NCBI GenBank assembly: GCA_035495615.1 | Contig: DATJFP010000039.1 | Location: forward strand, 1-53,327 | Length of the DNA stretch: 53,327 nt | Origin: Verrucomicrobiia bacterium | Lineage (GTDB): Bacteria > Omnitrophota > Omnitrophia > Omnitrophales > Aquincolibacteriaceae | Direction of reading: 5' to 3' | Shown here: positions 44,215 to 52,269 of the stretch, one piece after another | How the letters are laid out: the number at the start of each line of letters is the position of its first letter | Position numbering within the stretch: the first letter of the stretch is position 1 | Translations under genes and position numbers: made by a program | The notes under the pieces: model-generated | What the model was told of the DNA's origin: nothing | The model's input: the letters and a program-made list of their open reading frames with translations, nothing else | Database searches by the model: none

Positions 44215-44685
44215 ATGCTGAGAAAAATGAAAGGCATTGCCGCTGCTATTCTCATATTTGCCGCCGCGGTTCCGTCTGCGAGCGCGGTCAGCGTCCAGGA
44301 AGAGGTGGGGGCTCCGCCTCCGGAAGTCTATCAGGCCGCCCTGAGTGTCCTCACGCCCTACGGTATCGACAAGCAGGATCCCGAGAAGTTTGTCGTGGAA
44401 AGCAACTGGATCGAGGACAGCGTCGAAAGAAAACAAAAGCGTTATATTATCCGGACCCAAAAAAAATTCGCGCGGCGCTACCGCGTCAAAGTCACCCTGA
44501 CGCCGTGGCCCCGCTATGCCGTCATCAAAATCGAAATCGATCCCCGCTACCGTCCCATTGACTCGGCCGCTTTTGCTCCGTGGCGGAAGTTGTCGAGTGC
44601 CCGCGATGACTACGAATTGGCGCGGGAATATTTCCACCGCATCCTGACCAGCATCGAAGCCGCCCGCGCCGCCCAGCACGCCTGA
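44215..44685 (+). CDS. Uncharacterised secreted protein
   Basis: The protein has 156 residues. AAAGGAG precedes the ATG, and a signal peptide ends near ASA-V. The mature part resembles small periplasmic beta-alpha proteins of the BamC/DUF type (PEVYQAALSVLTPYGID, KQDPEKFVVESNWIED, RRYRVKVTLTPWPRYAVIKIEID in pieces). I cannot name a family. It follows the CNNM pair by 9 bases, so it may be co-expressed with them. Confidence 0.72.
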   Translation: MLRKMKGIAAAILIFAAAVPSASAVSVQEEVGAPPPEVYQAALSVLTPYGIDKQDPEKFVVESNWIEDSVERKQKRYIIRTQKKFARRYRVKVTLTPWPRYAVIKIEIDPRYRPIDSAAFAPWRKLSSARDDYELAREYFHRILTSIEAARAAQHA

Positions 44686-44827: not shown

Positions 44828-45931
44828 GTGAGAGTTTTAGCGGTCGCTAATCAAAAAGGGGGATGTGGAAAAACGACAACATGCATCAATCTTGCCGCCT
44901 GCCTTGCCCACCTGAAAAAAAGAGTTCTCTTGATTGATCTAGACCCGCAGGGACATTCCTCCTGCGGCCTCGGAATCCGTTCGGAAATGCTGCCTTTTAC
45001 GGTTTACGATTTACTCCGCGTCGGCGTTGAGCAGGCTCCGCCTCTCACCGAAGTCATCCAGCAGTTGAATCCGTACTTCGACGTGCTTCCCGCTACGACG
45101 TCCCTTTCCTGCCTGGAAGAAGACCTTGCGCATTGCTCCGACCGCGAGAGAAGGCTGACCCAGCAGATCGTTTCGAAGCTGAAAATCGAACAGGCTTACG
45201 ATTACATCATTCTCGATTGCCCGCCGAACCTGGGTGTGCTGACCTATAACGCGCTCGAGACCGCGGATGAAATTTTGATTCCGATCGAACCCTCGTTTTT
45301 TTCACTTCACGGACTCGCCAAAATCACGGAGACGGTCCAGCGCTTCAACAAGAAGAGAAGGGCGCCCCTTCATCTTCATGCGCTGCTTACGATTTTCGAT
45401 TCGCGCACGAAATTCGCCAAGGAAGTCTACGAAGAAGTGAAAAGCCATTTTCAGGAAAAACTTTTCCGCTCGATTATTCACGAAAGCGTGGTGCTCAAAG
45501 AAGCGGCCAGCGCCGGACGCAGCGTCGTGGATTACGCCCCGGAATCGCAGGCCTTCCGCGATTATTTCAATCTCGCGCTCGAATATCTCGGACGCGAATG
45601 GGATCTCCTGTTTCCCATGGAAGAACTGGGCTGGGGGAATTTCATGCGGAACAAATTCGGTCCGAGACGGGCGATTGGCGGCGTGCTTTTTCAATGCCTC
45701 AACCCGGACGCGAAGACCGTCGAGATCGCCGGCGATTTTAACAACTGGGTGCCGGAAGCCATGGCCAAGCCGGTCGGAAGCAGCGGGATATGGCAGAAGA
45801 TCATTCCCATCCCGCATGGAGAATTCCGTTATAAATTTATCGTAGACGGGGAATGGCAAGTCGACCCCGGACACCCGCAGGTCAAAGAAAACACCTACGG
45901 CACATTGGATTCCTACTTAAAGGTTGTGTGA
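44828..45931 (+). CDS. ParA-type ATPase fused to an AMPK/CBM48-like glycogen-binding domain
   Basis: The protein has 367 residues and starts at GTG after a GAGGGATGC site. Residues 1-260 are a ParA/Soj ATPase. The deviant Walker A is KGGCGKTT (10-17) with the signature Lys10, followed by LLIDLDPQGHSS, YIILDCPP and IPIEPSFFSLHGLAKI. Residues 280-367 are a CBM48/AMPK-beta-type domain (VEIAGDFNNW, GEFRYKFIVDGEW). The glycan-stacking residues of AMPK-beta are matched by Trp307, Lys336 and Trp343. I know of no described ParA with this domain. It may position a polysaccharide-containing cargo. It is the first of three coupled genes. Confidence 0.9.
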   Translation: MRVLAVANQKGGCGKTTTCINLAACLAHLKKRVLLIDLDPQGHSSCGLGIRSEMLPFTVYDLLRVGVEQAPPLTEVIQQLNPYFDVLPATTSLSCLEEDLAHCSDRERRLTQQIVSKLKIEQAYDYIILDCPPNLGVLTYNALETADEILIPIEPSFFSLHGLAKITETVQRFNKKRRAPLHLHALLTIFDSRTKFAKEVYEEVKSHFQEKLFRSIIHESVVLKEAASAGRSVVDYAPESQAFRDYFNLALEYLGREWDLLFPMEELGWGNFMRNKFGPRRAIGGVLFQCLNPDAKTVEIAGDFNNWVPEAMAKPVGSSGIWQKIIPIPHGEFRYKFIVDGEWQVDPGHPQVKENTYGTLDSYLKVV

Positions 45932-45932
45932 C

Positions 45933-46727
45933 ATGGTTCCTGCGGACGAAAAAAAGCTCAAACGAGGCCTGAAAGATGTTTCGCAGCTTTTTAACGGGCC
46001 GTCCCCGGGCGTCCTGGAAACGCGGGAAAACGAGATGTTTATCAAAATGGTCGGCATTTACAATCCGGGAGATCCGGGAGACGCTCTCTTTCTCAACGGG
46101 ATTCTTGCCGCGCTCGTTTCAACGCATTATCCCAGCTCCATCCTGACCGTGGGGGAACGCGCCGAGGCCGAACCGAAGACGGCGGCCCGGCCTTTGCCGT
46201 CCGCTACGCCGCATCTGGGACTGCCGTGGGATGAATTCGACAAGATCCGCGAAAGCCCCATCCACCGCCATTATTCGGGATCGTCGCCCCGTCACGTTAT
46301 GTTTATCAATGCTGATTTTTCTCAGACCGCGCGGCTTCCGCGGGTCGTGCCGCTGCTGGACAAATGCCTGCTTCTTGTCCGCCCCGACCTCGAAAGCCTC
46401 ATGGAAGCGTATAAGTTCGTGAAGGGCGTCCAGAGCCTGAACCCCCGCTTGCAGTACTTTCTTATTTTCGAGGGCGCTTCGCAGGGAGAGAGCGGCTGTT
46501 TTCTCTTCGAAAAATTTTCTTCGCTTCTGGCAAGGCGCCTGGGGGTCGGGCTCGTGTGGCTGGGCTATCTCGATCCATACCGCGACGCCGGACGACGGGG
46601 CGACGAACTCGAATTGGAGCATCTTTTTCTGAAAGATATTTCTTCCGGCGAAATTCCGGAAAAAATCGCGCTGCTCGAGCTCATGACTTTGCAGTGGATG
46701 CAGCTTGCGTCAGAGACCGCATCATGA
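45933..46727 (+). CDS. MinD/FlhG-like protein without a P-loop (degenerate ParA paralogue)
   Basis: The protein has 264 residues. The ATG at 45933 lies one base after the ParA-fusion stop; an in-frame TTG at 45924 is less likely. The order of segments follows MinD/FlhG: a P-loop-like position (GIYNPGDPGD, residues 41-50) that has lost the KGG-GKT residues but keeps the following FLNGILAAL helix. A Walker B-like strand (VMFINADFS, 122-130) and the MinD-like DKCLLLVRPDLESLMEAYK (about 143-161) follow. It probably cannot hydrolyse ATP and may be a regulator or dimer partner of the fusion protein. The family assignment is by eye. Confidence 0.7.
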   Translation: MVPADEKKLKRGLKDVSQLFNGPSPGVLETRENEMFIKMVGIYNPGDPGDALFLNGILAALVSTHYPSSILTVGERAEAEPKTAARPLPSATPHLGLPWDEFDKIRESPIHRHYSGSSPRHVMFINADFSQTARLPRVVPLLDKCLLLVRPDLESLMEAYKFVKGVQSLNPRLQYFLIFEGASQGESGCFLFEKFSSLLARRLGVGLVWLGYLDPYRDAGRRGDELELEHLFLKDISSGEIPEKIALLELMTLQWMQLASETAS

Positions 46728-47347
46728 ATCCGATCCGGGTGTGCAAGCCGATTTCCTGGACCGAAATGGAGCCGTCCGAAATACGCAAGGCGGTGCTCAA
46801 GGCGGCCGCGGAATTTTACCCGCAGTGGCTGACTCCCGAGGCTTTGAGCGCGCTTGGCGAGTCCGAGGCCGAGAGGACGGCGGGCGGCAGAGGCGCCACC
46901 GCCTTTCTCATCAAAATTTTCACGGCATTCCCGGAAACCGGTGATTTAAAAAATGCCCTGGAGGAAATCCGAAGGGTGACGGACGCGGCCGGCCCGAGAA
47001 ACATTTTTCTGTTTTTCCCGTGGATGGAAAACCAGCCGCAAGCCGGAAGCGATCTCTCGGCCCATGAGTTTCTATGGAAGGCCTGCCGTTCCGTTCGCGC
47101 GGTTCAGTATCACTTCCTTGCCATGGGGGACGAGAAAGCCGTCAGCTTCCGGGAGATCTTTTCGCAAGACACGGATTTTGAAAGCATGCTTCCCGAAATG
47201 CCCCTTGTCGCGGTTGAAAGGCCTTTGAGGAGCGAAGACGAACCCTACTCTTTTTACCGCAAATCGAGGCTCTCCCAGGAAGAACTGCGGGAATTCTTCG
47301 AGCTTGGGCTCGAAATCAGGGGGATCAAGCTTGCCCCGGGCGCCTGA
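46724..47347 (+). CDS. Uncharacterised protein of the ParA-CBM operon
   Basis: The protein has 207 residues. The ATG at 46724 overlaps the preceding stop by four bases, so it belongs to the same unit. There is no signal peptide or membrane helix. It has a helical N-terminal half (SEIRKAVLKAAAEFY) and a mixed core (GPRNIFLFFPWMEN). I do not recognise it. Its position suits an adaptor or cargo-specifying component, but this is inference only. Confidence 0.72.
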   Translation: MNPIRVCKPISWTEMEPSEIRKAVLKAAAEFYPQWLTPEALSALGESEAERTAGGRGATAFLIKIFTAFPETGDLKNALEEIRRVTDAAGPRNIFLFFPWMENQPQAGSDLSAHEFLWKACRSVRAVQYHFLAMGDEKAVSFREIFSQDTDFESMLPEMPLVAVERPLRSEDEPYSFYRKSRLSQEELREFFELGLEIRGIKLAPGA

Positions 47348-47408: not shown

Positions 47409-47417
47409 TGCTATAAT
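47409..47417 (+). promoter_or_regulatory. Extended -10 promoter element
   Basis: TGCTATAAT at 47409-47417 is an exact TGnTATAAT extended -10. The -35 region is poor (TTTCCA at 47390-47395). Transcription would start at about 47424, only about 4 bases before the ATG at 47428. Confidence 0.6.
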
Positions 47418-47427
47418 GTCCCTCTCT

Positions 47428-48156
47428 ATGAGCAAAGTTAAAAGCGAAATCGAAATTCTCAAAAAGGTCCAGGAACTGGACCGCGACCTTTATCTCGCCA
47501 CCGAGCGGTTGAACGAAATCCCCGAAGAAGTTTCCGCCCTCAAGCAAAAGCTGGAAGGGGAGAAGAACCGCCTCAAGGAACTCGAAGCCGCGCTGAAAAG
47601 CTGCCAGCTCAAGCAAAAAGAAAAAGAAGGCGAGCTGGGCCAGAAAGAAGGCCAGGTCAAGAAGCTGGACGGCCAGCTTTCCCAGGTGAAGACCAACAAA
47701 GAATACAGCGCTCTCCAACAGGAAATCGCTTCGCTCAAAGCCGACAATTCCCTTCTCGAAGAAGGCATTCTCAAGGCCATGGATGAAGTGGAGGCCGCGA
47801 ACGAAGAAGTCCGCAAGGAAAGAGATCATCTGAAGCAGCGCGAAAAAGATTACGGCACGCTCGAAAGCGAGCTGAAAGAAAAAGAAAAAAAATTCAAAGA
47901 AAGCGTCGAGACGCTGCGGAAGCAGCGCCAGGAAATCCTCACGCAGGTCGATCCCGAGATCCGCACGATGTACGACGCTGTGGTCCAGAAACGCCAGGGG
48001 ATTGCGCTCGCCAAAGTGGTCGGCGAAACCTGCGGCGTCTGCAAAATTAAATTGCGCGCTCAAATTTTGAATGAAGTCATGGGCGGCCAAAGCCTCGTAG
48101 CCTGCGAAAACTGCCTGCGCTTTCTCTATATTGAAGAGGTTGCCCCGGCTTCCTAG
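47428..48156 (+). CDS. Coiled-coil protein with C4 zinc ribbon (zf-RING_7/CT398-like)
   Basis: The protein has 242 residues. The ATG at 47428 is chosen because the upstream ATG at 47416 lies within the -10 box. A long antiparallel coiled coil (about residues 1-185) ends in a zinc ribbon with CGVC and CENC pairs. The family (PF02591, typified by HP0958 and CT398) includes a flagellar/type III chaperone that also binds mRNA and RpoN. No flagellar genes are seen here, so the role is open. Confidence 0.9.
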   Translation: MSKVKSEIEILKKVQELDRDLYLATERLNEIPEEVSALKQKLEGEKNRLKELEAALKSCQLKQKEKEGELGQKEGQVKKLDGQLSQVKTNKEYSALQQEIASLKADNSLLEEGILKAMDEVEAANEEVRKERDHLKQREKDYGTLESELKEKEKKFKESVETLRKQRQEILTQVDPEIRTMYDAVVQKRQGIALAKVVGETCGVCKIKLRAQILNEVMGGQSLVACENCLRFLYIEEVAPAS

Positions 48157-48316
48157 GCAGCCTTCTTTGTTTCGCCTCCTCCTAAAGAGCCTCATAAACC
48201 CCGCTTCAGCGTTTTTTTCCTCCACTTTACTCCCCTAAGAGAAAAACCTACATATTGTTGATCCATTCCTCTATGACCCCCATATATTGTATAGAGTTGC
48301 TATAAGAAATTAAATA

Positions 48317-48345
48317 TTGACTCATTGTTAAGCCAAGAGTAGACT
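48317..48345 (+). promoter_or_regulatory. Promoter of the mraZ division cluster
   Basis: TTGACT (48317-48322) and TAGACT (48340-48345) are 17 bases apart. Transcription would start near 48352, just before the MraZ boxes, so a bound repressor would block initiation. Confidence 0.65.
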
Positions 48346-48359
48346 GCGGCCGATAATTG

Positions 48360-48384
48360 AGTGGTGAAAAGTGGTAGAAAGTGG
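48360..48384 (+). promoter_or_regulatory. Three MraZ-binding boxes
   Basis: AGTGG occurs at 48360-48364, 48370-48374 and 48380-48384, an exact 10-base period with 5-base spacers. MraZ of other bacteria binds similar G-rich direct repeats with this spacing in its own promoter, so autoregulation is likely. Confidence 0.75.
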
Positions 48385-48409
48385 CGAGTAAGCGAGGAGT
48401 TTAAAGCGC

Positions 48410-48862
48410 ATGTTTTACGGGGAATACGAACATAGCCTCGACAACAAAGGACGCGTGATCATTCCCGCGAAGTTCCGGGAAATTTTCAAGGAGCGTTATG
48501 TTGAAAAGTTCTACATCACGCGCGGCTTGGACCAGTGCCTTTTCGTGTTTACCGAAGAAGTATGGAAGAGCCAGGAAAAAAAATTCCGCGAGTTGCCTTT
48601 TACCAATTCGGAATCCAGGAAATTCAATCGTCTTTATTTTTCAGGAGCCAGTGAGGTCGTTTGCGACAAGCAGGGCAGGATCTTGATTCCCGAATACTTG
48701 AAGTCATACGCGAGCATCAAGGAACAGGTCATGATCATCGGTGTTTCGGACAGGATCGAAATCTGGGCGCAGGACAAGTGGAATGATTTTTTTGGTCAGA
48801 ACAAAGATAGCTTCGAAGACTTGGCAGAAAAGTTAATGGATTCGTCCAATGAAAATAAATAA
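48410..48862 (+). CDS. mraZ: Transcriptional regulator MraZ
   Basis: The protein has 150 residues with two AbrB-like repeats (LDNKGRVIIPAKFRE and CDKQGRILIPEYLKS), each with the D-x-x-GR core. It forms a ring and represses its own division and cell-wall operon through the boxes at 48360-48384. GAGGAG lies 10 bases before the ATG. Confidence 0.96.
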   Translation: MFYGEYEHSLDNKGRVIIPAKFREIFKERYVEKFYITRGLDQCLFVFTEEVWKSQEKKFRELPFTNSESRKFNRLYFSGASEVVCDKQGRILIPEYLKSYASIKEQVMIIGVSDRIEIWAQDKWNDFFGQNKDSFEDLAEKLMDSSNENK

Positions 48863-48872
48863 AGGGGGAATT

Positions 48873-49211
48873 ATGGCCTATCGTTCGAGGAGCAAGATGG
48901 GAGTCGACGTGCTTCGTTTCCAGGGCGATCTCGACGTTTTGGAAATGGTCAGGATGAAAAACCGCCTGAGCCGTCTTCTCAAAAAAAACCACAAAAAGTT
49001 GCTTCTGGATTTGGGGCGCACGAAACGCATCGAACTCGCGGGGCTCGGCATCCTTGTCGACCGGCTCATGAAGGTCCGCGCGGCCAAGGGCGACATCAAG
49101 CTCTGCAACCTGCGGCCCGAAGTGAAGACCGCGCTGAACATGATCGGCGTGGGCGAGTTGATGGAATCGTTCTCGAACGAGGAAGAGGCCATCCGCAGCT
49201 TTGTCGCATAA
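48873..49211 (+). CDS. STAS-domain protein lacking the phosphorylatable serine
   Basis: The protein has 112 residues from the ATG at 48873, preceded by AAAGGGGG. A start at 48849 inside mraZ has no such site. The STAS fold is clear (VDVLRFQGDLDVLEMVRMKNR, LLLDLGRTKRIELAGLGILVDR in two pieces). At the position where anti-anti-sigma factors have D-S-S-G it has E-L-A-G, so it cannot be controlled by serine phosphorylation there. It sits between mraZ and rsmH, an unusual place. Confidence 0.85.
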   Translation: MAYRSRSKMGVDVLRFQGDLDVLEMVRMKNRLSRLLKKNHKKLLLDLGRTKRIELAGLGILVDRLMKVRAAKGDIKLCNLRPEVKTALNMIGVGELMESFSNEEEAIRSFVA

Positions 49212-50115
49212 GCCCGTTTTGCTGGCGGAGGCGGTTGAAAGCCTCCGGTTGAAACCGGGTTTGAGCGTCTTGGATGCGACCCTTGGCGGCGGAGGCCACG
49301 CCGCGGAGATATTAAAGCGCATCCGGCCCGGGGGGCGGCTCATCGGGATCGACCGCGATCCGGCCGCGCTCGACCGATGCCGGAAGATTTTGGAAGGTGG
49401 GGACGTTTCGCTGCATCACGCGAACTACAGCAAGGCCAGCGAAGTCCTGGATTCATTAAATATCGATTTTGTGGATGCCGTAATACTTGACGCAGGATTC
49501 TCCTCGGACCAGCTGGAAGACGCGGCGAGGGGATTCAGTTTCGAACGGGAAGGCCCTCTGGATATGAGGATGGATCCCGGAATCGAAAAGACCGCGAAAG
49601 ACCTGATCTACGATCTTTCAAAATCGGATTTGGAAGACCTGTTCCGGAGATACGGCGAAGAACGGTGGGCCCGAAGATTTGCCGAACGCATTTGCGAGGC
49701 GCGCCGGGAAAAGCCTATCGAGACGACGCTCGACCTGGCAGGCGTGATCGAAAGCGCAATGCCTGTCTCGATGAGATTCAAAAAAGGGCACAGGCCTCCC
49801 TGGGCGAGGCACAATCCGGCTACGAAAGTTTTTCAGGCCCTGCGGATCTCGGTCAATGACGAGCTGGGTTCCCTGGCCGGAGCGTTGCCGGTGTTGTGGG
49901 CAAGGGTGAGGCCGGGCGGAAGAATGGCTGTGATTTCGTTTCATTCACTCGAAGACCGGATCGTCAAACATCAGTTTAAGGATTGGGCGCTCCGGAAGGA
50001 AGGGACGCTGATCGTTAAAAAGCCGGTAGTTCCTTCGGAAGCAGAGATCCGGGACAATTCCCGGGCAAGAAGCGCGAAACTGCGCGTGGTGGAAAAAAAT
50101 GAAATTCGCTCTTAA
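49201..50115 (+). CDS. rsmH: 16S rRNA m4C1402 methyltransferase RsmH
   Basis: The protein has 304 residues. The TTG at 49201 gives the family's usual N-terminus (MSHKPVLLAEAVE) and overlaps the STAS gene by 11 bases. It has the SAM-binding LDATLGGGGHAAEIL and IGIDRDPAALDR, then DAGFSSDQLEDAARGFSF, KVFQALRISVNDEL and VISFHSLEDRIVK. It methylates the ribosomal P site and is the normal neighbour of mraZ and ftsL. Confidence 0.95.
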   Translation: MSHKPVLLAEAVESLRLKPGLSVLDATLGGGGHAAEILKRIRPGGRLIGIDRDPAALDRCRKILEGGDVSLHHANYSKASEVLDSLNIDFVDAVILDAGFSSDQLEDAARGFSFEREGPLDMRMDPGIEKTAKDLIYDLSKSDLEDLFRRYGEERWARRFAERICEARREKPIETTLDLAGVIESAMPVSMRFKKGHRPPWARHNPATKVFQALRISVNDELGSLAGALPVLWARVRPGGRMAVISFHSLEDRIVKHQFKDWALRKEGTLIVKKPVVPSEAEIRDNSRARSAKLRVVEKNEIRS

Positions 50116-50488
50116 AGTCATTCTTACGGTTGCAATCGTGACGTCCTGTGTCGTACTATACGTGCACGGGGAAGTCGCGATTTTCCAGGTTTCATATTCT
50201 CTGGACGCGCACGCCCGTCTTCTGAAAGAAAGAAGCGAAGAATACCGTCGCATCAAATTCGAAGTCGAGCAGCTCAAAGCGCCGCGCCTTCTGGAAGAGA
50301 AGATGAACCAGATGAATTTGGAGTTGACGCTTCCCAGGCAGGTCAAAGTCGTCCGCATCCCCGAGCTTCCCTCCGTCGCGGACGCTGCCATGAGGAACGT
50401 AAACCCGCAGAGTTTCACCCAGTCTCCGCTTGATTTCCTCGGGCGCTGGGTCAAGGTCGCGGTGGCCCAGGCTAAAATGGAATCCTGA
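50099..50488 (+). CDS. ftsL: FtsL-like divisome protein
   Basis: The protein has 129 residues and starts 17 bases inside the end of rsmH. One N-terminal transmembrane helix (about 4-23) is followed by a periplasmic heptad region (HARLLKERSEEYRRIKFEVEQ in part), as in FtsL/FtsB. Identification rests on size, topology and the rsmH-ftsI context. It would bridge FtsB and FtsQ with the FtsW-FtsI synthase. The tail after residue 85 is longer than usual. Confidence 0.8.
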   Translation: MKFALKVILTVAIVTSCVVLYVHGEVAIFQVSYSLDAHARLLKERSEEYRRIKFEVEQLKAPRLLEEKMNQMNLELTLPRQVKVVRIPELPSVADAAMRNVNPQSFTQSPLDFLGRWVKVAVAQAKMES

Positions 50489-52269
50489 TGTCCCAATCGG
50501 TTTCGGCAAAACGGTTTTGGTCCGTTAATGCCGGCGTAGTTCTGATTTTCCTTCTCTTGACGTATCAGCTCGTCCAGCTCACCGTGATCCGTCAGCCCTC
50601 CTTGATGGAAGCTGCGGAAAAGCAGCATCAGCTGACGATCAAGATCCCGCCCCTGCGCGGCCCCATCGTGGACCGGCGCGGACGGGAACTCGCCAGCAAT
50701 CTGAAGCTCCCTTCGGTCTATGCCGTCCCGCGCATGCTCGGCGACGGGGAGAAAGAAGATCTTGTCCGCGATCTGGGCGTCATCCTCAAGCTGCCGCGCG
50801 ACTATCTCGACGAGCGTCTTTCCCGCAACAAGGCCTTTGTCTGGATCAAGCGCAAGATCTCCGAAGAAGAAGCGGCCAAGATTCAGGCGCTGCGCCATCC
50901 CGCGCTCGGTACGATCGAAGAATACCGCCGTTTTTATCCGCAGGGCGACCTTCTGTCCCAGGTACTGGGTTTCACGAACATCGACAATGAGGGACTGGAA
51001 GGCGTGGAGCTTTTTTTTAATAAGGAGCTCCGTGGTCAGGAGGGCGTGCGCTACACGCGCCGCGATGCGCTCGGCCGTGAGATCCGCGCCTTCGAACTGA
51101 AGACCGTTCCTGCCGTGAACGGCAGCCGTGTGGTGCTCACCATCGACCAGTACCTTCAATATCTGACCGAGCGTTCCCTCGAAAATGCCTACGTCCAGTG
51201 GAAAGCCAAAGGCGCCAGCGCCATCATCATGAATCCCAAGACCGGCGAGATTCTCGCGATGGCCAACCGCCCGGGTTTTGATCCCAATGAATTCGAAAAA
51301 TCTTCCAAAGAAAGCCACCGCAACCGCGTGCTGACCGACATGTACGAGCCCGGCTCGGTTTTCAAGATCGTGGCCACTTCGGCCGCGTTGAACGAAGGCA
51401 CGGCCTCGCCGGAGGACGTCTTCTTCTGCGAAAACGGGCAGTACCGCTACGGCACGCGCGTGCTGCGCGACGTGCATCCTTACGGGACGCTGACCTTCGA
51501 GGAAGTGCTCATCAAATCCAGCAACATCGGCGCGGTCAAAATCGCCGCGACGCTGCAACACGAGACATTTCAAAAATACATCGATGGTTTCGGCTTCGGC
51601 AAAGCGACAGGCATCGACATGCCGGGCGAAGCGCCGGGTTTTACGCGCAAGCCCAAGGACTGGTCCAATACTTCGCCATACAATATCCCGATGGGCCATG
51701 AAGTCATGGTCACGGCCCTGCAGATGGCCAACGCTTACTCGGTTATCGCCAACGGCGGCTATCTTGTGAAGCCTTACATCATCGCCCGCGTGGAAGACCA
51801 GTACGGCGTCGTTTTAAGGGAGAAAAAGCCGGAAGTTGTTCATCAGATCATCAAGCCCGAAGTGGCGAAAAAGATGAACGACATCTTGGTGCGCGTGGTT
51901 CAGGAAGGAACGGGCAAAAAAGCCATCATCGACGGGATCTCGGTGGGCGGCAAGACGGGAACCGCGCAAAAAGTCCTGCCCGGCGGGCGGGGCTATTCGC
52001 ACAACAGCTTCATCGCGTCGTTTATCGGATTCGCTCCGGCTGAGGACCCTCAGCTGGTCATGGCCGTCGTGCTCGACGATCCTAAACCCAGCTATTACGG
52101 CGGCAGCGTCGCGGCGCCTGTTTTCAAGGAAGTGATCGAAGCGGGGCTTCTTTATATGGGGTATGTTCCCAGCAATGCGGAAAAACTCAACGCCGATGGT
52201 TCCGCGCCCGCCGCTCCAGCCAATCCGCCCAAGCCTCAAGCAGTAACTTCTTCGGGTAGAGCCGAATAG
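50488..52269 (+). CDS. ftsI: Division transpeptidase FtsI / PBP3-type
   Basis: The protein has 593 residues with an N-terminal transmembrane helix (about 14-32). It has the PBP dimer domain (LRGPIVDRRGRELASNL) and a transpeptidase with S290-VF-K293 in EPGSVFK, S344-S-N346, and K489-T-G491 in GGKTGTAQK. It crosslinks septal peptidoglycan. The start overlaps the ftsL stop in TGATG. The A/P-rich last about 27 residues are encoded where the convergent gshB gene overlaps. No PASTA domains are present. Confidence 0.94.
   Translation: MSQSVSAKRFWSVNAGVVLIFLLLTYQLVQLTVIRQPSLMEAAEKQHQLTIKIPPLRGPIVDRRGRELASNLKLPSVYAVPRMLGDGEKEDLVRDLGVILKLPRDYLDERLSRNKAFVWIKRKISEEEAAKIQALRHPALGTIEEYRRFYPQGDLLSQVLGFTNIDNEGLEGVELFFNKELRGQEGVRYTRRDALGREIRAFELKTVPAVNGSRVVLTIDQYLQYLTERSLENAYVQWKAKGASAIIMNPKTGEILAMANRPGFDPNEFEKSSKESHRNRVLTDMYEPGSVFKIVATSAALNEGTASPEDVFFCENGQYRYGTRVLRDVHPYGTLTFEEVLIKSSNIGAVKIAATLQHETFQKYIDGFGFGKATGIDMPGEAPGFTRKPKDWSNTSPYNIPMGHEVMVTALQMANAYSVIANGGYLVKPYIIARVEDQYGVVLREKKPEVVHQIIKPEVAKKMNDILVRVVQEGTGKKAIIDGISVGGKTGTAQKVLPGGRGYSHNSFIASFIGFAPAEDPQLVMAVVLDDPKPSYYGGSVAAPVFKEVIEAGLLYMGYVPSNAEKLNADGSAPAAPANPPKPQAVTSSGRAE

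Follow-up and report, generated by a model that had tools for sequence, protein, structure and literature searches.

A ParA-type ATPase fused to a CBM48 domain and its tagged partners: a putative alpha-glucan positioning system in Omnitrophota and other bacteria

The known cargoes of ParA/MinD systems range from DNA and carboxysomes to chemoreceptor arrays, flagella and the division ring; a polysaccharide was not found among them in the literature searched. What, then, might a ParA ATPase fused to a glycogen-binding domain be doing in the cell? The question is raised by a forward-strand locus in an Omnitrophota contig, the whole of which (53,327 nucleotides) was analysed and is referred to below as the window. 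The first gene of this locus (44828..45931) encodes a ParA-CBM48 fusion of 367 residues and runs from a GTG start to a TGA stop; homologues begin at the same residue as the GTG at 44828. After a gap of one base follows the gene that we call P2 (45933..46727; 264 residues, ATG to TGA), which overlaps by four bases (ATGA) with P3 (46724..47347; 207 residues, ATG to TGA). A preliminary description of this DNA had placed three coupled genes here, and its coordinates, gap and overlap all match ours. Immediately downstream (47416..52269, same strand) lies a gene for a C4 zinc-ribbon coiled-coil protein, followed by mraZ, STAS, rsmH, ftsL and ftsI of the dcw cluster, a gene order conserved in the taxonomic order to which the window belongs. 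On the upstream side, a 156-residue protein without a Pfam match (44215-44685) is encoded between CNNM genes and the fusion, as it is in the relatives L066, L067 and L068.

The fusion consists of two readily recognizable parts. The N-terminal part matches Pfam AAA_31 (4e-51, residues 2-179), the first 256 residues constitute a complete ParA, and the closest solved structures for this front portion are those of ParA/Soj (8ray, 9e-53; 1wcv, 2e-45). The C-terminal part (residues ~286-367, 45683..45928), a CBM48/AMPK-beta-type glycogen-binding domain, matches Pfam AMPK1_CBM at residues 294-366 (5e-13; 49.5 bits, the curated cut-off being 26.8) and also CBM_48 (1.7e-8); searched alone, this tail finds AMPK-beta CBM structures (4e-10) as well as SEX4/DSP4 and GlgB. 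The earlier assignment of a complete ParA/Soj ATPase joined to a C-terminal AMPK-beta/CBM48 domain is thus borne out by both profiles, AMPK1_CBM being far above its cut-off. For the fusion as a whole, no curated NCBIfam model exceeded its cut-off among the matches listed.

Residue conservation was counted in 70 distinct ParA+CBM proteins, read from Omnitrophota DNA. On the ATPase side, the deviant Walker A motif KGGCGKTT (residues 10-17, 44855..44878) is invariant or nearly invariant among fusions, and K10, K15, T16, D37, D39 and D130, representing the deviant Walker A with its signature lysine, motif 2 and Walker B, are conserved. The combination of KGGCGKTT with DPQxH differs from that of the canonical ParA of the same genome, which has KGGVGKTT and DSQGN. 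The canonical DNA-binding Arg position is occupied by K/R in about half of the fusions and by Val222 in the window protein, while K/R224 is kept nearly always; since the former position is variable, nucleoid binding by the fusion is uncertain. Of the ParA positions contacted by the ParB arginine in M. xanthus, Tyr60 and the acidic residue 99 are kept in the fusion and the acidic residue 92 is not. In the CBM48 domain, Trp307 and Trp343 are each found in 70/70 fusions and position 336 is K in 56 and R in 11 (67/70), so that the three core glycan-contact residues singled out in the preliminary description are indeed retained. Trp307, Lys336 and Trp343 align with residues that we take to be the glycan contacts of AMPK-beta. 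Trp322, Tyr335 and Asp346 are likewise invariant or nearly so, Gly358 is invariant, and residue 361 is Asp or Asn in 70/70 fusions.

The domain pair extends well beyond this contig. A query with the fusion tail matched 247/285 Omnitrophota genomes, a count that includes all CBM48-like relatives, and most of the top matches were open frames of ~355-450 residues. A scan of genome contigs revealed, among the matches listed, further full-length fusions in Omnitrophota and also in MAGs labelled 'bacterium' (L175, L182), Myxococcales (L178) and Planctomycetota (L179), although these labels may err. AMPK1_CBM was above its curated Pfam cut-off in fusions L175, L182, L179, L181 and L265. In the phylum of the L178 genome, a full-length fusion was found in 25/141 genomes. 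Homologues of the fusion are therefore present both in Omnitrophota (the 70 distinct proteins) and in a second phylum, and P2 and P3 recur beside it in the window's order, in family f46 and in other MAGs. With full-length fusions recurring in dozens of genomes and P2/P3 recurring alongside, the module is far from a chance arrangement. In a FastTree phylogeny of ParA domains, 54/54 fusions formed one clade (support 0.82), apart from 37 canonical ParAs that were picked by similarity and included the one from the window's own genome. That genome has its canonical parA-parB pair on a different contig, which argues that the fusion is not the chromosomal partition ATPase. No plasmid-borne fusion was found; the two candidates, H1 and H2 (94-96% coverage), are canonical ParAs that lack a CBM. 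One genome (G285) possesses two fusions: L294, accompanied by a P2 with an intact P-loop, and L293, with no tag match (see below) alongside.

P2 has no Pfam or NCBIfam match of its own. Modelled with AF2 (pLDDT 84.5), the P2 of the window is most similar, according to Foldseek, to FlhG (4rz2, 1.8e-8) and also to ParA, FleN and MinD, and P2 copies from family f46 are recognized as CbiA/MinD/ParA (CbiA 7e-7). P2 homologues adjoin the fusion throughout the window's order, in family f46, and in L175 and L178. The P-loop is absent in the window copy, degenerate in f46 and present in L175 (SGKGVRGKT). P2 thus looks like a MinD/FlhG-type protein whose ATP binding has disappeared in the majority of the lines covered; the partner had been described as lacking the P-loop, which is correct for the window copy but not for the L175 relative, where Walker A is kept.

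The best-conserved part of P2 is not its body but an N-terminal peptide, KLxRGLxD(V/I)SxLF, which in the window protein reads KLKRGLKDVSQLF (residues 8-20, 45954..45992). In an alignment of 40 P2 proteins, the mean column identity of which is 26% overall, the tag residues L13, D15, S17 and F20 are nearly invariant. The L178 phylum has the version RxLxDVLHYFLP, located <200 nt after the fusion in 20/20 sampled loci. Outside Omnitrophota the tag stands directly downstream of the fusion in 22/25 loci, with a single match elsewhere across all six frames of these loci. The peptide resembles the N-terminus of the same genome's ParB, KKALGKGLSALI. An N-terminal peptide of ParB is sufficient for ParA binding and stimulation (PMC12462528), and N-terminal peptides of this kind are general partner tags of ParA/MinD ATPases (PMC10241942). 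P2 therewith appears to carry a short basic/aliphatic tag resembling that of ParB, as do partners in ParA/MinD cargo systems, and may dock onto the fusion through it.

P2 is not the only candidate partner. In 57 Omnitrophota loci (one region being sampled twice, and a false match, the SMC-like protein L100, being excluded from later neighbourhood counts), P2 lies downstream of the fusion in 21, another protein, c01, is encoded directly upstream in 32, and 4 have neither; the two occur together in 0/57. Such mutual exclusion suggests that P2 and c01 may do the same job. Most copies of c01 feature a conserved N-terminal EIYEHLAKxYL with basic residues, one likely membrane segment and a beta-rich domain (topology assigned by eye), the latter showing sub-threshold likeness to sugar-binding folds. 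In many families, the fusion is followed by a protein with a lysine-rich tail and a domain resembling EF-Tu domain 2 (sub-threshold, 1.5e-4; L080 9327-9737, L086 8140-8544, L092 3348-3761).

The neighbourhood of c01 brings in a different reading, according to which the fusion is a BcsQ-like regulator that places or regulates a site of envelope polysaccharide synthesis or export at the membrane, with the CBM binding the polymer or an intermediate. BcsQ profiles do match the ParA part, a similarity generic for the ParA family, and among the neighbours in type-B loci are an Alginate_exp-type porin and c01 with its outward beta-rich domain. However, no polysaccharide synthase gene was found conserved beside the fusion, the porin is further off and not conserved in the window's order, and a CBM48 in the cytoplasm belongs to the alpha-glucan type, all of which makes an envelope role improbable.

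The third protein of the module, P3, is conserved beside P2 but strongly diverged (23% mean column identity over 40 sequences), with invariant L183 and E187 in a C-terminal L..EE motif. Its AF2 model (pLDDT 75) has no significant match in PDB, the best being the restriction endonuclease PaqCI with an E-value of 0.03, and NucS_C matches in three f46 copies are below threshold. These similarities give a hint, and not more, of a decayed nuclease fold.

The tag was also sought as a DNA pattern across 285 genomes, with the reversed pattern as a control. The pattern matched in 31/285 genomes and the control gave 3 matches; the first tag matches were P2 genes, bar three stray ones. In four f46 genomes, a second match was found ~2.7 kb from that of P2. 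The second tagged gene encodes a DUF4912 + Glucodextran_B protein and directly precedes a GH57 branching enzyme (BE_C 5.8e-39). Four of the seven f46 genomes have the tag on the DUF4912 protein, and the other three have a DUF4912 gene without it. In the readable DUF4912 N-termini outside f46 the tag was not seen; they are instead lysine-rich, recalling histone H1 tails. DUF4912 is close to GH57 genes also in other families and in the window's own genome, and a block of DUF4912, GH57 branching-enzyme-like and UppS-like genes recurs in the phylum (L172, L173; in f46, L088 and L166-L168).

Genes for alpha-glucan enzymes stand beside the fusion in 26/57 Omnitrophota loci, to be seen against a backdrop of about 1-4 GH57 genes per genome. 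Being related by descent, the 26 loci should not be counted as independent, though the arrangement varies from group to group. A GH57 gene is located ~2 kb upstream of the fusion in 15 loci; in f46, the module is followed by DUF4912, together with the GH57 branching enzyme in 6/7; malQ-like, GH57 and glgP-like genes adjoin the fusion in L181/L299; and a carbohydrate phosphorylase is nearby in L085 and one further genome. In the window's own genome, the nearest relative of the CBM is a stand-alone AMPK1_CBM/CBM48 protein of 95 residues (L003 1576-1860, contig C36), encoded directly upstream of a starch/glycogen synthase gene (Glyco_transf_5, 5e-91), and another contig has DUF4912, a phosphorylase-like gene and GH57 together. 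A phosphoglucomutase/phosphomannomutase-like frame is present within a few kb of the fusion in 17 other-phylum loci (e.g. L279 2257-3775).

Neither the window's order (14 loci) nor the other-phylum loci, one of which has a galT-like gene, were found to have alpha-glucan genes next to the module; the other-phylum loci are high-GC, and their shared neighbours are not reliably readable by simple frame calling. The same absence would be expected if the CBM48 fold had turned structural or protein-binding, with a protein complex, possibly involving P3 or DUF4912, as the cargo and no direct reading of glycan. E-set domains are often structural, which also fits. Yet the conservation of Trp307/Trp343, K/R336, Gly358 and Asp/Asn361 is hard to explain without a ligand, and we regard a purely protein-binding CBM as distinctly improbable.

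What the window's order does have next to the module is the dcw division cluster, directly downstream wherever the loci are long enough. This arrangement, with the module directly upstream of mraZ-rsmH-ftsL-ftsI, may be taken to indicate a division- or chromosome-linked ParA similar to MipZ or PomZ, which would place the division site or couple division to stores, the CBM being only a regulatory glycogen sensor. Precedent exists in PomZ, a ParA/MinD ATPase that positions the division ring together with activators (PMC13170346). Nevertheless, division genes adjoining the module were not found outside the window's order, where both fusion and binding face persist all the same, and a separate ParA-ParB pair is encoded in the window's genome; a division-linked role is, in our view, rather unlikely.

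The module encodes what, judged by sequence, is an intact ParA ATPase core joined to a CBM48 domain with a conserved glycan-binding face, co-encoded with a tagged partner of MinD/FlhG fold. We consider it about an even bet (a probability of roughly 0.5) that these parts form a ParA/MinD-type positioning or tethering system, the cargo of which would be alpha-glucan (glycogen) or enzymes sitting on it. In such a system, an ATP-bound ParA dimer on the nucleoid (or membrane) would grip glycogen through the CBM. The tag of P2 or, in other families, of membrane-anchored c01 might then dock at the ParA dimer interface and trigger ATP hydrolysis and release, with granules being spread, tethered or shared out at division as the outcome. 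The DUF4912 protein of f46, through its copy of the tag, could recruit to this ParA the branching enzyme encoded next to it. A positioning system with a glycan link had been proposed at the outset, and our results support it in part: the ParB-like tag, the mutually exclusive alternative partner and the alpha-glucan genes at many homologous loci speak for it, whereas the lack of such genes in the window's order and in the other-phylum loci, the variable DNA-binding Arg position and the restriction of the DUF4912 tag to four of seven f46 genomes speak against it. A more specific version, still tentative and short of even odds, is that of a dedicated glycogen-partition machine in which ParA reads the polysaccharide directly, a docking tag is common to P2 and DUF4912, and a membrane-anchored partner replaces P2 in other lineages.

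How does the putative system compare with known ones? As in ParABS, a ParA ATPase core is combined with a partner whose N-terminal peptide, basic and aliphatic, resembles that of ParB; however, ParA here bears a CBM48, the partner has a MinD/FlhG fold and no ParB domain (no Pfam match), and the genome's ParA-ParB pair is elsewhere. With McdAB and other ParA/MinD cargo systems (PpfA/ParC, FlhG, PomZ) it shares a ParA-family ATPase, an N-terminally tagged partner and a cargo, here putative, other than DNA, but what would read the cargo is a glycan-binding domain that forms part of the ATPase polypeptide. P2 is similar to FlhG/FleN and MinD in fold and in combining an N-terminal peptide with a MinD-like body; it differs by the loss of the P-loop in the window and f46 copies and by being partnered with a ParA-CBM, and no flagellar gene was seen alongside. 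The domain and its glycan-contact residues are those of AMPK-beta/CBM48; in place of a kinase subunit, a phosphatase or a glucan enzyme, its fusion partner here is a ParA ATPase. The module would work like known ParA cargo systems; what sets it apart is that the presumed cargo reader is fused, that the partner is a pseudo-MinD and that two proteins share a tag. The literature searched, on ParA with CBM48 or glycogen and on Omnitrophota with ParA, contained nothing on this fusion, and the three-gene set, widespread in bacteria, is apparently undescribed.

In E. coli csrA mutants, glycogen that accumulates in the old-pole region keeps the chromosome out and brings division to an end (PMC4836754). 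Such harm indicates that glycogen placement is a real problem for cells. With its defined proteins, its defined domain and a peptide of 13 residues, the module offers a way of testing whether bacteria position their carbon store or share it out. For DUF4912, which is conserved alongside GH57 branching enzymes and about which the literature searched says almost nothing, it provides a lead as well. If truly a glycogen-partition machine, it would be, to our knowledge, the first known active positioning system for a storage polysaccharide. Taken at the level of sequence, our results suggest that some bacteria may actively place or tether their glycogen.
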